From positions 1 to 47,239 of the forward strand of contig DAIDHW010000012.1 of NCBI GenBank assembly GCA_027451865.1: a stretch of 47,239 nucleotides of DNA, read 5' to 3'. The position numbers and the translations under genes are program-made. A model generated the notes under the pieces. It did no database searches. It saw nothing but the letters and a program-made list of their open reading frames with translations, and was not told the origin of the DNA. This DNA comes from Leptolyngbyaceae cyanobacterium clean351. GTDB lineage: Bacteria > Cyanobacteriota > Cyanobacteriia > DAIDHW01. This document shows, piece after piece, positions 11,403 through 28,573 of this stretch (position 1 is the first letter of the stretch; the number at the start of each line of letters is the position of its first letter).

Positions 11403-11630
11403 CTACAACTTGCTTTCCAGGTCACTGACTTCTGAGTTGATCCAGTTGTTGGCGTCTTGGTCAACTTCTGTGTTCAAGGCTTGTTCGATGGCATCTCCAC
11501 CAGGGACGTGGGAGACTAAACCGTCGACGGCCTGGTTAATAAACCCATCTGCTGCGTTGTCAATGCCGGCGTCGACGGCGAAGTTGCCAGCTTGCTGAAT
11601 CAGGTTGGGGTCGGAATTGGGGTCAGCCAC
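11403..11630 (-). CDS. Small acidic protein of unknown function
   Basis: 75 residues from a GTG start at 11630, preceded on the minus strand by GAGGAG at a workable spacing. That site is the main reason to accept the gene. The protein is acidic and Asn/Asp/Ala-rich (NFAVDAGIDNAADGFINQAV), probably helical, with no Cys and no membrane segment. I do not recognise the family. It stands alone between the P450 gene and the chlG operon. It could be a short stress or regulatory protein, but nothing in the sequence shows this. Confidence 0.55.
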   Translation of the reverse strand: MADPNSDPNLIQQAGNFAVDAGIDNAADGFINQAVDGLVSHVPGGDAIEQALNTEVDQDANNWINSEVSDLESKL

Positions 11631-11802: not shown

Positions 11803-12762
11803 CTAAAGGGCGTGACGACCTAGAGCTAGGGCAGCCACCAGCATCCCCAAGACTAAAAAGGGCTGGGCACTAGCCTGGTACTTGACGTCGTTGCCTAGGG
11901 GATCACGCAGAAAGTACATATCTTGGAAGGTGATCTGGGGAATCACCAGCAACAGTAACAGTGAAGCATACAGGTGCTCTCCTAGAGATACCAGGTAGAT
12001 GGCAATGGTAATCTGGAATAGGTCGATCATAGTAACACAGATCTGGGCCGCCCTATCTACCCCAAACATTACCGGCAGGGATTGGAGACCCAGTTGCCGG
12101 TCTCCCTCCACGCTTTTGAAGTCGTTCACCACCGCGATGCCCAGCCCCGCCAAGCTATAGATCAAGGTCCAAAACATTACCTCAGGGGTGAGGGTACCAA
12201 AGAGGGCCTGACCCGCCCACCAGGGGAGGGCAATATAGCTTGCCCCCAGGGCGTAGTTCCCCAGCCAGCCATTGCGCTTGAGCTTGAGGGGAGGAGCGGA
12301 GTAGATGTAGGACACAAAGGCCCCCCCCAGGGTCAGGGCACTCATCACCGGCCAAGGGTGCCCTGCCCAGCGGTCAAGAAGGAAAGCTGCCCCCAGGCCC
12401 CCCGCTAGGAGGATCCAAATCTGGGCTACTACCTGCCCGAGGGGAATTGCCCCCGAGGGGATGGGCCGGTAGGGTTCGTTGATGGCATCAATCTCTCGGT
12501 CGTAGTAGTCATTCATGGTCTGGGTGTAACCCGCCATTAGAGGACCCGCCAGGAGCATACACAGGGAAGACTCAAGGACATGCTCCCAGGTCCAAGTGAA
12601 GTGGCCAGAAGATGCGGCCCCACACACCACCCCCCAGATCAGGGGGATCCAGGTGATCGGTTTCATCAGCTGCAGGCGCAGTTTCCACAGGGATGTGGTT
12701 TGGTGAGCCCCCTTCATCCCCAGCAATTGTCGGGGGTCAGGAGTGGGGGAAGAGTCAGCCAT
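11803..12762 (-). CDS. chlG: Chlorophyll synthase ChlG
   Basis: 319 residues, a UbiA-type polytopic prenyltransferase with eight to nine hydrophobic segments. It esterifies chlorophyllide with geranylgeranyl or phytyl diphosphate in the thylakoid membrane, the last step of chlorophyll a synthesis. The Asp-rich diphosphate/Mg site NDYYDREIDAINEPYRPIP lies near residues 105-125, and the second motif DFKSVEGDRQ sits in the second half. It is last in a tight minus-strand operon, starting 5 bp after the Get3-like ATPase gene, which suggests a functional or regulatory link between the two. Confidence 0.97.
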   Translation of the reverse strand: MADSSPTPDPRQLLGMKGAHQTTSLWKLRLQLMKPITWIPLIWGVVCGAASSGHFTWTWEHVLESSLCMLLAGPLMAGYTQTMNDYYDREIDAINEPYRPIPSGAIPLGQVVAQIWILLAGGLGAAFLLDRWAGHPWPVMSALTLGGAFVSYIYSAPPLKLKRNGWLGNYALGASYIALPWWAGQALFGTLTPEVMFWTLIYSLAGLGIAVVNDFKSVEGDRQLGLQSLPVMFGVDRAAQICVTMIDLFQITIAIYLVSLGEHLYASLLLLLVIPQITFQDMYFLRDPLGNDVKYQASAQPFLVLGMLVAALALGRHAL

Positions 12763-12767
12763 AGGAG

Positions 12768-13859
12768 TTAGGCAAAGGAGATGACAAGATAACCATCCTG
12801 AAATTTAGCACCGGCAATCTCCCGGTGCCGCAGCGGCACCGGCAGGACTAGATTACGCCGTTGGTCGGCCGCCTCTATAGTCAGCCCAAGCACCTGCTGG
12901 GTCAGCTTGACCTGTTTTTTGTCTAGGCCAGGCAGAAACACCGACACCTTAGCCGCGGCCACATCTACAACCAGGGGAGCAGGGCCACTACTGTGCAGCA
13001 GGTCAGGCAGAGCTTGGGCGAGGGGCTGCCAGTCTCTCGGGGAGTAGGGGAGGGGGGTGATGGGCAGGGGGGCAAAGTTGCCGGGGGGAGCATCCTCACC
13101 GGGCTGGGTGTGGTTTAGCAGCACTCCCTTGACCGTCAGGCTGACCTGCTGAGCACTACCCCAGAGGTAGAGGGCTTGGGCGACGGCAGCCCGGTCAGGG
13201 CTAGTCACCAGGAAGGCAGCTACTCGCTCCGGGTCATGAACTGCCTGCCGGCCGCGCTCGAGCATTTCTCCGGCCTGGTGAGCGGGTTGGGTAAAGGTAT
13301 CGCCCCCAGAACCGAAGTTTACCACAGTGCTGACAATGGGCTGGACCAGGGGAACAAGACTCCCCAAATCCGACTCGGCAAATACCTGGGCGGCTTTGTC
13401 CAGGTACCACTTGAGGATCTCGGGCATCCCCAAGAGGCGGAGGGTAGCCTGGGAGGCCTGACCATCGTAGAGGATCACGTCGTAAAGACCGCTGGCCTCA
13501 AGCTCCCGCAGGGCATTGAGGACTAAGGCCCCATCCATGCCGGGGAGGATACCCAACTCCTGGGCATAGATTGAATGGAGCAAAGGGGTGCGCAGGTACT
13601 TGGACTCCTGCTGCTTTAGGGATTCCCAGTGGCGACTAATCGCCTCGGTTGCCTGGAGTTGACACACGTGCAGGTTAGGCGACAGCTCCTGGGTACCGGG
13701 GCTTAAGGGAGTGCCCAGGACCAACCCCAGACCCGGACCTGAGTCGTCAGTGGCGAGCAGCACCCTCTGACCTTGGCTTGCTAGTTGCCGGGCAGCAGCT
13801 GCCGCCACTGTTGTGCGTCCCGTGCCGCCCTTACCCAAAAACGTCAGAATCTTGGCCAT
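12768..13859 (-). CDS. Get3/ArsA-like protein with degenerate ATPase motifs and C-terminal alpha-crystallin-like domain
   Basis: 363 residues. The N-terminal part has the Get3/ArsA fold, but its deviant Walker A reads GKGGTGRTT, so Arg15 replaces the P-loop lysine. The switch I DPAHS motif is replaced by DDSGP (38-42), and switch II (normally SAPTG) reads DGQASQATLR. ATP hydrolysis is therefore doubtful. The last 65 residues (SVFLPGLDKKQ to GAKFQDGYLVISFA) resemble the alpha-crystallin/Hsp20-like domain described for Get3d of cyanobacteria and plastids. It lies between DUF2862 and chlG with 5-bp gaps on both sides. A pseudo-ATPase chaperone for membrane or pigment proteins is an inference. 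Confidence 0.85.
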   Translation of the reverse strand: MAKILTFLGKGGTGRTTVAAAAARQLASQGQRVLLATDDSGPGLGLVLGTPLSPGTQELSPNLHVCQLQATEAISRHWESLKQQESKYLRTPLLHSIYAQELGILPGMDGALVLNALRELEASGLYDVILYDGQASQATLRLLGMPEILKWYLDKAAQVFAESDLGSLVPLVQPIVSTVVNFGSGGDTFTQPAHQAGEMLERGRQAVHDPERVAAFLVTSPDRAAVAQALYLWGSAQQVSLTVKGVLLNHTQPGEDAPPGNFAPLPITPLPYSPRDWQPLAQALPDLLHSSGPAPLVVDVAAAKVSVFLPGLDKKQVKLTQQVLGLTIEAADQRRNLVLPVPLRHREIAGAKFQDGYLVISFA

Positions 13860-13864
13860 AGAGC

Positions 13865-14065
13865 CTACTGCCGCACCAGCTCTACTTCATCCTCAAAAAA
13901 CCAGGTAGTGGCTTGGTCGTCAAATTTCACCATCACCCCGATCCCGCTGCCATCGACCATTTTGTAGCCCTGCACGGTGCCCAATTTCCCTAGCTTTTCG
14001 ATGACGGCCGGCCCGACTCGGTCCCGCAAGCGCCGGACACGCACTTTCTCGCCAATTTCCATCAC
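13865..14065 (-). CDS. DUF2862 family protein
   Basis: 66 residues. It reads as a small SH3-like beta barrel: EKVRVRRLRDRVGPAVIEKL, then GTVQGYKMVDGSGIGVMVKF and TTWFFEDEVELV. This matches the DUF2862 family found in cyanobacteria and plants; function unknown. It is the first gene of the operon with the Get3-like gene and chlG (5-bp gap) and is divergent from the winged-helix gene at 14220. Confidence 0.85.
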   Translation of the reverse strand: MMEIGEKVRVRRLRDRVGPAVIEKLGKLGTVQGYKMVDGSGIGVMVKFDDQATTWFFEDEVELVRQ

Positions 14066-25896: not shown

Positions 25897-27075
25897 ATGC
25901 GTGTAATCCTCTTAACGGGGAAAGGCGGCGTCGGTAAAACCTCCGTCGCCGCGGCCACGGGTCTGCGCTGTGCGGCCATGGGATATCGGACCCTAGTCCT
26001 AAGCACCGACCCGGCTCACTCCCTGGCTGACAGTTTTGACCAGGAGCTAGGCCACGACCCCCGGCTGATCAAGCCCCACCTATGGGGGGCAGAACTAGAC
26101 GCCCTCAGGGAACTAGAAAGCAACTGGGGAGCGGTCAAACGCTATATTACCCAAGTTTTGCAGGCCCGGGGCCTAGATGGGGTGGAAGCGGAGGAATTGG
26201 CGATCCTACCGGGCATGGATGAGATCTTTAGCCTGGTGCGCATGAAGCGTCACCAGGATGAGGGGGAGTTTGACGTGCTAGTGATTGACTCGGCCCCCAC
26301 CGGTACGGCTTTGCGACTTTTGAGCCTGCCGGAGGTGGCCGGGTGGTACATGCGCCGATTCTACAAGCCCCTGCAGAGAATGTCCGCGGCCCTGCGCCCC
26401 CTAGTAGAGCCAATTTTTCGGCCCCTGACTGGGTTTTCCCTGCCGGATAACGAGGTGATGGATGCCCCCTACGAGTTCTACCAGCAGATCGAAGCCCTAG
26501 CCCAGGTGCTAACAGACCCCACTCAAACAACGGTGCGACTAGTAACTAACCCGGAAAAAATGGTGATCAAGGAGTCCCTCCGGGCCCATGCCTACCTAAG
26601 CCTTTACAATGTGGCCACGGATATGGTGATCGCCAACCGAATCATCCCCGATGAGGTGACGGACCCCTTTTTCCAGCGCTGGAAGGTAGCCCAAGAGCGC
26701 TACCGCCAGGAGATCCATGAGGACTTTTGCCCCCTACCGGTGCGGGAGGTGCCCTTGTTTACCGAGGAGTTGTGCGGTCTGCCAGCCCTCGAGCGCCTTG
26801 CGCAGGTCCTGTACGGTGACGAGGACCCCACGCAGGTCTACTACAAGGAGACCACCATGCGGGTAGTCCAGGAGCAAAATCAGTACAGCCTTGAGCTTTA
26901 CCTGCCGGGCATTCCCAAGGACCGGGTGGAATTGGCCAAAAATGGCGACGAACTCACCGTCCGGATCGGCAATCACCGCCGGAATCTGGTCCTTCCCCAG
27001 GCCCTTGCCCTGCTGCAGCCCGCCGGGGCCAAGCTCGAGGATGACTACCTGAAGATTCGCTTCAGCGGCTCTTAG
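25897..27075 (+). CDS. Get3d-like ATPase with intact P-loop and C-terminal alpha-crystallin-like domain
   Basis: 392 residues. It has an intact deviant Walker [10 protein letters not shown], with signature Lys9 and P-loop Lys14, switch I STDPAHS (36-42) and switch [12 protein letters not shown]. The C-terminal 70 residues ([16 protein letters not shown] to [15 protein letters not shown]) match an Hsp20/alpha-crystallin-like domain, the feature that distinguishes cyanobacterial and plastid Get3d from tail-anchored-protein Get3. It is probably a chaperone-like cytosolic ATPase. The client is unknown. It is a clear paralogue of the degenerate protein at 12768. Confidence 0.9.
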
Positions 27076-27150
27076 GCTGGGCCTGTGCTATGATCCCTTA
27101 GAGAGCTAAACAAATCTTAAGGTTTTCCATGACGTTTCCCCACCTCGCCC

Positions 27151-27870
27151 ATGACTCAGGCTACCCCTAAGGTCGTCCTGATTACTGGCGCTGGGAGTGG
27201 CATTGGCAGGGCTGTTGCCCTAGCTTTTGCCCGCCCGGGTGTCCATCTAGTCCTCCTTGGTCGCTCCCTCCCTAAGCTAGAAGCGGTGGCGGCCCAGGGG
27301 TCCCTCGAGGGTGCTCAATGTACCGTCCATTCCCTGGACCTAGCCCAGGTGGACCGGGTCCGGCCTACCCTAGAGGCGATTAGCACCGCAGCTGGGGCGG
27401 TAGATGTGCTGGTTAATAGTGCGGGGATCGCCTACACCCAGAACCTGGCAGACACCCCCCTAGAGGCCTGGCAGCAGGTCCTAGACTTAAACCTAACGAG
27501 TGTGCTGCAGTGTATCCAGGGAGTCTTACCCACCATGCGTCGGCAGCGTCGGGGGACAATCATCAACATCAGCTCCATTGCTGGCCACCAGGTTTTTCCC
27601 CAGTGGGGCGCCTACTGCGTCAGCAAGTTTGGGCTCATGGCTCTAGGTAAGGCGCTTGCCCAGGAGGAGCGTCCCCACGGCATCCGCGTTACCACTGTTT
27701 GTCCTGGAGCTGTAGACACCCCCTTGTGGGACGCTGTGGCTGGAGATTTCAACCGGGCAGCCATGCTTTCCCCGGAATCTGTAGCTCAAGTGGTCTACAC
27801 CGCTTCCCTGCTGCCCCCTGAGGCCGTCCTCGAAGAAGTCACCCTCCTGCCCCAGGCAGGTACTCTCTAG
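27151..27870 (+). CDS. Short-chain dehydrogenase/reductase
   Basis: 239 residues, classical SDR. The cofactor motif [12 protein letters not shown], the catalytic Ser in [11 protein letters not shown] and the YCVSK tetrad Tyr/Lys are all present, with VCPGAVDTP after them. Resemblance is to YdfG- or sepiapterin-reductase-like oxidoreductases. It sits 22 bp before folE. A role in pterin metabolism is therefore conceivable (cyanobacteria make biopterin glucosides) but unproven. Confidence 0.88.
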
Positions 27871-27892
27871 TCCACTCCCTTCCACCCACCCT

Positions 27893-28573
27893 ATGAACGG
27901 CGCCCTTCCCCCTTTGAGCAAAGTCAATCCCGGCTCCGAGTCTCGCCCTGACCGCAACACCCTCAACGGCAAGGAGCCTAGGTTACAGGCTCCCTCACCG
28001 GAGCTGCTCCAAGAGATGACCGCTGCGGTAGAGCAGATTATTCGGGGGGTGGGGGAAGACCCCCAACGGGAAGGTTTGCTCAAAACCCCCAAACGGGTAG
28101 TAGAAGCGATGCAGTTTCTCACCAGTGGCTACCACCAGTCCCTCGAAGACCTGGTGAATAACGCCATCTTTGATGAGGGGCATAACGAGATGGTCCTGGT
28201 GCGGGACATTGACTTTTTTAGTTTGTGCGAGCACCACATGCTCCCCTTTGTGGGTAAGGCCCACGTGGCCTACGTCCCGAACCAAAAGGTGGTCGGCCTT
28301 AGCAAGCTAGCCCGGATCGTGGAGATGTACTCCCGCCGCCTCCAGGTCCAAGAGCGGCTCACCCGCCAGGTAGCCGAGGCAGTCCGCACCATTTTAGAGC
28401 CCCGGGGGGTAGCAGTGGTCCTAGAGGCCAGTCACATGTGCATGGTGATGCGCGGAGTCCAAAAACCCGGCTCCTGGACCGTAACCAGCGCTATGGTAGG
28501 GGTGTTTCAGGAAGACCAAAAGACCCGTGAAGAGTTCCTTAACCTGATCCGCCACCGGCCCGCTTTTTTGTAG
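27893..28573 (+). CDS. folE: GTP cyclohydrolase I
   Basis: 226 residues. It converts GTP to dihydroneopterin triphosphate, the first step of folate and pterin synthesis. Zinc ligands are visible in LCEHHMLPF (Cys112, His115) and in the later [15 protein letters not shown]. The first 40 residues are a variable extension, as in other cyanobacteria. It lies between the SDR gene and DUF3288 in a likely operon. Confidence 0.97.

Follow-up and report, generated by a model that had tools for sequence, protein, structure and literature searches.

A get3d gene with an arginine P-loop lies between petP and chlG in an old, conserved cyanobacterial gene cluster

The closest described relatives of the protein studied here are NosGet3d of Nostoc sp. 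PCC 7120 and AtGet3d of Arabidopsis. Get3d persists from cyanobacteria through to land plants, and its function was still given as undetermined when the structures were published in 2023 (PMC10248533). NosGet3d carries an arginine at the position of the Walker A lysine and a glutamate in place of the switch I aspartate, and it is without an A-loop; its arginine was called distinct from most cyanobacterial Get3d proteins (PMC10248533). ATP is hydrolysed by NosGet3d with a kcat of 0.28/min and a KM of ~0.35 mM, and kcat values of 1.10 and 2.7 per min were given for AtGet3d and yeast Get3. Crystals of NosGet3d showed a homodimer, and the protein captured a tail-anchored client, whose transmembrane segment is bound by a closed hydrophobic chamber; AtGet3d was likewise solved as a homodimer. 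A second cyanobacterial Get3 type, the Sll0086 type, was named in the same paper, in which the terms chlG, petP and synteny have no occurrence (PMC10248533). No report of a linkage of these genes was found in the accessible parts of PMC9342900, PMC5057469, PMC9958174 and PMC13421787; the accessible part of PMC13421787 gives the name PetP also to an unrelated protease.

A stretch of 47,239 nucleotides from Leptolyngbyaceae cyanobacterium clean351 (contig DAIDHW010000012.1), referred to below as the window, was analysed. Three consecutive minus-strand open reading frames (ORFs), petP, get3d and chlG, occur in it in the same order as in the conserved cluster described below (Table 1). The petP ORF matched NCBIfam NF050003 with 107 bits (cut-off 65) and Pfam PF11061 with 97 bits. 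The get3d stop codon is separated from the chlG ATG (12762) by 5 bp, as an earlier reading of the DNA letters, the sequence-only reading, had stated, and the petP stop codon is likewise 5 bp from the get3d ATG. An acidic ORF of 75 aa (11403-11630, minus strand) follows chlG. A second Get3 gene of the window stands in another setting (25897-28573), where an SDR gene and a folE-like ORF (GTP cyclohydrolase I, judged by sequence) come after it.

Table 1. Features of the petP-get3d-chlG locus and of the Get3 paralogue in the window
Feature	Position	Strand	Remarks
petP	13865..14065	minus	First cluster gene; DUF2862 = cytochrome b6f subunit PetP; likely start ATG at 14062
get3d (NosAFP / All4481 / Slr1794 type Get3 homologue)	12768..13859	minus	363 aa
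Deviant Walker A / P-loop GKGGTGRTT, residues 9-17	13809..13835	minus	Signature K10 kept; canonical lysine = R15
Switch I equivalent DDSGP, residues 38-42	13734..13748	minus	Replaces DPAHS; D39 = family-majority Asp
Switch II equivalent DGQASQATL, residues 132-140	13440..13466	minus	D132 kept (94/104 in family)
C-terminal alpha-crystallin/HSP20-like domain	12774..12950	minus	PF17886 and conservation
chlG, chlorophyll synthase	11803..12762	minus	TIGR02056 546 bits, cut-off 436
Sll0086-type Get3 paralogue	25897..27075	plus	P-loop and switches canonical; has an alpha-crystallin-like domain; unlinked to petP/chlG in the window

Comparison of the middle protein with NCBIfam NF050088 (NosAFP) yielded 481 bits (cut-off 325) over residues 1-362, and the general TRC40/GET3/ArsA model TIGR00345 yielded 96.8 bits, under its cut-off of 135. 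A phmmer search revealed All4481 of Nostoc (3igf/8egk) as the best solved relative (E 3.5e-109, residues 1-362) and Arabidopsis Get3d (8elf) as the next (E 3.7e-42); identity to NosGet3d is ~48% over the whole length. An AlphaFold model of the monomer, generated from 16 sequences, had a mean pLDDT of 77.9, with residues 89-106 and 171-189 poorly modelled. Foldseek searches with this model returned 8egk as the best match (TM 0.86), 8elf with a TM of 0.77 and archaeal Get3 with ~0.58. A tree of 69 rows was built from 60 of the 104 Get3d proteins identified below, with no family contributing more than four, and from 9 of the 31 Sll0086-type proteins; it kept the two groups wholly apart, with an SH-aLRT of 100 on the separating branch, and placed the window protein among the Get3d proteins, on a long branch. 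On the basis of family match, solved orthologue, fold and tree, it is virtually certain that the window protein is Get3d proper, of the type of NosGet3d, AtGet3d and Slr1794 of Synechocystis, and the product of the gene at 25897-27075 is of the Sll0086 type. The family model, the structure matches and the tree thereby rule out a dead relative of Get3d, as the sequence-only reading had described the protein. That reading had interchanged the two: the orthologue of Get3d is this protein, and the intact paralogue belongs to the other type. The alpha-crystallin/HSP20-like domain PF17886, which that reading had seen as retained, was detected at residues 304-362 (54 bits, cut-off 22.5). The translation contains a single cysteine and so has no CXXC zinc motif. 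Elsewhere in the genome of the window, a 632-aa frame (G000:C10:3957-5687; loci L002 and L003) matched ArsA_ATPase twice (158.8 and 134.3 bits), and its predicted product is a two-domain ArsA-like protein, a further kin of Get3d.

The canonical Get3/TRC40 ATPase motifs, a P-loop lysine, DPAHS in switch I and DxAPTGH in switch II, were not found in the window Get3d, which has R15, DDSGP and DGQASQA at the respective positions and scores under the TIGR00345 cut-off. These deviations, read earlier from the letters alone, were all confirmed in the translation, as was the intact state of the paralogue. The switch I context is ATDDSGP in the window Get3d versus STDPAHS in the paralogue, and the switch II context is YDGQASQATLR versus a different stretch of ten residues; the paralogue further carries a 14-residue motif and DSAPTGT. 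Because K10, D39 and D132, which the sequence-only reading had left unmentioned, are all present, the nucleotide site of the window Get3d is, as far as the translation indicates, altered and not erased. The earlier label 'ATPase-dead' finds no support by analogy with NosGet3d, which has the same arginine and a worse switch I, with Glu for Asp, and nevertheless turns over ATP (PMC10248533). Slow ATP hydrolysis would be a better guess for the window protein than a dead site, because its site is less altered than that of NosGet3d.

Position 15 is occupied by R in 78 of the 104 cyanobacterial Get3d proteins, by C in 9, by K in 8, by Q in 7, and by P and S in 1 each; of 80 named best-hit loci, a sample biased to close relatives, 77 have the arginine, one row being counted after correction for an offset start. 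An arginine in place of the P-loop lysine appears from these counts to be the usual state of cyanobacterial Get3d and no oddity of Nostoc. The mismatch with the published statement on its frequency (PMC10248533) may arise from pooling with the Sll0086 type, in which the lysine and all ATPase motifs are invariant in 31 of 31 rows (the paralogue of the window is counted twice, and about 30 of the 110 matched genomes are covered). K10 is retained in 92 of the 104 Get3d proteins. The combination of signature lysine and K or R at position 15 is missing in 24/104, and a tree from which the P-loop columns had been left out implies at least 8 changes. Cyanothece sp. PCC 8801 provides an example of a natural Get3d that has no P-loop. 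Family-weighted conservation at the level of >=90% was found at 0 of 8 sites in switch I and at 26 of 66 sites in the alpha-crystallin domain, which is better conserved than any other part of the protein. This pattern, together with the P-loop losses, suggests that selection is firmer on the C-terminal domain and the fold frame than on the catalytic loops.

Profile searches in 291 genomes of the phylum revealed Get3d over the cut-off in 104, all within the class of the window, ChlG over the cut-off in 139, and PetP matches in 140 (139 over the cut-off). Genes were counted as linked when they were on the same strand and <3.5 kb apart. In 95 of the 104 genomes (27/29 families), petP immediately precedes get3d, and in 65 chlG follows it downstream; the complete petP-get3d-chlG order is present in these same 65 genomes, which represent 20 of 29 families. 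The conservation of the order DUF2862-Get3-chlG in cyanobacteria was thus borne out and is not confined to one genome. Neighbouring chlG was missing in 39/104 and neighbouring petP in 9/104, some of these cases being broken contigs. A neighbourhood control of 74 loci was performed by clustering all ORFs of 73 regions (up to 5.5 kb on each side, some contig-cut) and the window; 30 loci with 1.5 kb flanks were left out. It showed petP in 19/21 families and chlG in 13/21, and the next real neighbours, which we take from their sequence to be an ABC transporter ATPase and HisF, in 6/21 each. Some control clusters that ranked above the ABC ATPase resemble, in size and position, antisense shadows of petP, get3d or chlG. 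Of the 80 named public loci in the best-hit sample, 72 have petP upstream and 48 have chlG downstream; contig ends truncate several others.

Since arginine is the majority state (78/104) and the order recurs in 20/29 families, both exceed what chance would give, and there is hardly any doubt that petP, get3d and chlG form an old, conserved cyanobacterial cluster. Earlier work had described the protein, the class of its structure and the unusual P-loop; the conserved neighbourhood is the new part of the finding. In the open-access literature, no report was found of the linkage, of the majority-arginine count, or of the deletion scar and the endosymbiont pattern described below. The state of the P-loop showed no simple correlation with chlG linkage across the 104 proteins: linked and unlinked loci numbered 54 and 24 for R15, 5 and 3 for K15, and 6 and 12 for other residues, the last unlinked rows being drawn from a small number of families, chiefly f13 and f19.

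Genomes with ChlG and without get3d numbered 36, and all of them belong to a single family, f20, presumably Cyanobiaceae (Prochlorococcus and marine Synechococcus). In 36/36 of these genomes, petP lies 35-130 bp from chlG, an adjacency that suggests an excision of get3d from the cluster of the ancestor. The Sll0086-type gene is present in 104/104 get3d-bearing genomes and absent from the same 36; its products are extremely conserved, being 72-87% identical across the class. Because the co-absence concerns one family and one or two events, it is no proof of a joint function or of a heterodimer of the paralogues, and the heterodimer suggested by the sequence-only reading is further unsupported by the homodimers of NosGet3d and AtGet3d. 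Get3 function is dispensable, since 36/36 f20 genomes keep PetP, ChlG and photosynthesis without either Get3 paralogue. A second PetP-like match elsewhere was observed in G101, G163, G203 and other small f20 genomes (for example, G163:C1:915007-915195). Genome G046 was without petP, get3d, chlG and petB, though its photosystem genes are intact and its completeness is given as 99; this gap probably reflects missing or masked sequence and was not counted as a loss.

The life of f20 without get3d is consistent with an alternative in which the linked genes merely share expression as a unit of housekeeping genes of the thylakoid. Get3d would then be a chaperone of general use, sHSP-like or lipid-binding, that is not specifically connected with PetP or ChlG and has a drifting nucleotide site. 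The broken P-loops with their repeated changes, the contrast between a variable switch I and a conserved alpha-crystallin domain, and the AtGet3d density consistent with phospholipid (PMC10248533) point in the same direction. The recurrence of one order in 20/29 families, versus 6/21 for the next neighbours, argues against a unit of this kind, and we consider it rather unlikely.

Four endosymbionts without intact PsaA/PsaB (EtSB, G141; RgSB, G177; G262; and G323) have an intact get3d with petP adjoining in all four. EtSB and RgSB are non-photosynthetic, and all chlorophyll genes of EtSB are dysfunctional, as stated in the accessible part of PMC5638926. PsaA/PsaB are absent in EtSB and G323 and broken in RgSB and G262, with most pieces full of stops. 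Among the three genomes examined (EtSB, RgSB and G262), PsbA/PsbD were detected only as fragments, most with stops, in EtSB and G262 and not at all in RgSB, and PetB was intact in all three. In EtSB, chlG (L081 4548-5416) is a frameshifted pseudogene directly downstream of the intact get3d. Its coding sequence is distributed among three ORFs of differing frame and has six insertions relative to G262, versus 0 indels in the full-length get3d (Poisson 0.0008). Pairwise dN/dS of get3d among EtSB, RgSB and G262 was 0.17-0.27, with the pairs that include EtSB at 0.22-0.27, near some functional neighbours; by comparison, linked genes gave 0.05-0.21, the Sll0086 type 0.06-0.09 and chlG, in the pair RgSB-G262, 0.26. 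Changes unique to the EtSB branch comprised 16 nonsynonymous and 9 synonymous ones, a ratio that cannot be told from neutrality (p = 0.10); the ratios of the Sll0086-type gene (6:16) and petB (2:13) are tighter. On the G262 branch, get3d changes were 8:17. The loose constraint in EtSB would be in keeping with a function that disappeared in part along with photosynthesis. By these comparisons, get3d outlasts chlorophyll synthesis, but the constraint on it may be weakening there. The smallest genomes of the endosymbiont family, G292 (1.49 Mb) and G293 (1.44 Mb), presumably UCYN-A, have intact PsaA/PsaB and keep petP-get3d; chlG was not found within the 7.1 kb covered.

The retention of get3d in EtSB, full length and free of indels beside a chlG with six insertions, weighs against a second alternative, in which a catalytically dead Get3d relative assists ChlG in pigment insertion and may form a heterodimer with the active paralogue. 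The petP linkage (95/104) also exceeds the chlG linkage (65/104), and NosGet3d, with the same arginine, hydrolyses ATP and is a homodimer (PMC10248533). In favour of a dead partner are Arg15 and the altered switches, the chlG gene at 5 bp in the window and adjacent in 65/104, the joint presence (104/104) and joint absence (36/36) of the paralogues, and the turnover of NosGet3d, ~ten times slower than that of yeast Get3 (PMC10248533). All in all, we regard it as improbable. The sequence-only reading had proposed a chaperone or pigment-insertion partner; a membrane-protein chaperone remains plausible, and the pigment-insertion part is weakened by EtSB, where get3d is intact, chlG is frameshifted and no intact photosystem core genes were found.

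Hlips, the small single-helix high-light-inducible proteins, end in a single membrane helix, and a role of Get3d as their cytosolic carrier to the ChlG-HliD-Ycf39-YidC complex appears very improbable. It could draw on the complex of ChlG with HliD, Ycf39 and YidC, described in the accessible part of PMC6175206, and on the tail-anchored helix bound by NosGet3d (PMC10248533), but matches to PF00504, a weak model for short Hlips with many matches below its cut-off, peaked in four get3d-less f20 genomes (7, 8, 10 and 15; 13 genomes searched), and the get3d-bearing endosymbionts EtSB and G323 had no match. The retention in EtSB and the many LHC-like matches in f20 make a role limited to pigment insertion or Hlip delivery less likely, and a strictly chlorophyll-related role is less likely than that of a thylakoid-biogenesis chaperone of transmembrane segments.

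The explanation preferred here, towards which we lean slightly, is that get3d of the NosGet3d/AtGet3d/Slr1794 type, in the middle of the cluster, encodes a transmembrane-segment carrier for thylakoid biogenesis; the activity as a transmembrane-segment chaperone, taken by itself and by analogy, would be an even bet. The window Get3d would act like NosGet3d as a cytosolic shield for hydrophobic single-span (tail-anchored or small) membrane proteins and would pass its clients to the thylakoid, probably to YidC/SecY. The insertase side is drawn by analogy: the accessible part of PMC12040988 describes binding of plant GET3B to ALB3/ALB4, and that of PMC6175206 binding of YidC by ChlG. PetP and the b6f complex would be the more constant genetic associate of Get3d, and chlorophyll synthase would accompany it frequently. 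The preserved parts would be the chamber and the alpha-crystallin domain, and ATP turnover would be slow and, in several lineages, probably dispensable. PetP has been described as a regulatory subunit of the b6f complex and not as a core one, so that co-transcription of petP and get3d need not mean co-assembly; a specific link of Get3d to b6f biogenesis is doubtful. It is a still more speculative idea that Get3d might be a dedicated thylakoid-biogenesis chaperone tying b6f (PetP) to chlorophyll supply (ChlG), a closed-chamber, alpha-crystallin-regulated holder of transmembrane segments whose slow turnover, lost in several lineages, would leave a nucleotide-independent carrier. The open-access literature yielded neither interaction nor phenotype data on a cyanobacterial Get3d. 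The cluster, the f20 scar and the retention in endosymbionts provide specific candidate partners and natural controls for the job of Get3d, which is now directly testable in laboratory cyanobacteria.

Compared with NosGet3d (All4481; 3IGF/8EGK), the window Get3d shares the arginine P-loop, the altered switch I, the lack of CXXC and the alpha-crystallin domain. The two differ in the P-loop (GKGGTGRTT in the window versus GKSGVARTK) and in switch I (Asp in the window versus Glu); activity and structure were measured for NosGet3d, whereas the window Get3d is known from its sequence and a predicted model. AtGet3d (At1g26090; 8ELF) has the same fold and domain order and is 29% identical in the structural match; unlike the window protein, it has the P-loop lysine (GKGGSGKTT) and is chloroplast-targeted. 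The Sll0086-type paralogue shares the Get3 ATPase and the alpha-crystallin-like domain and differs by its invariant ATPase motifs and by the absence of petP/chlG linkage in the window. Cytosolic Get3/TRC40 and ArsA share with the window Get3d the P-loop Get3 fold and a client-binding helical domain, but have canonical switches, in most Get3 proteins a CXXC zinc site, and no alpha-crystallin domain.
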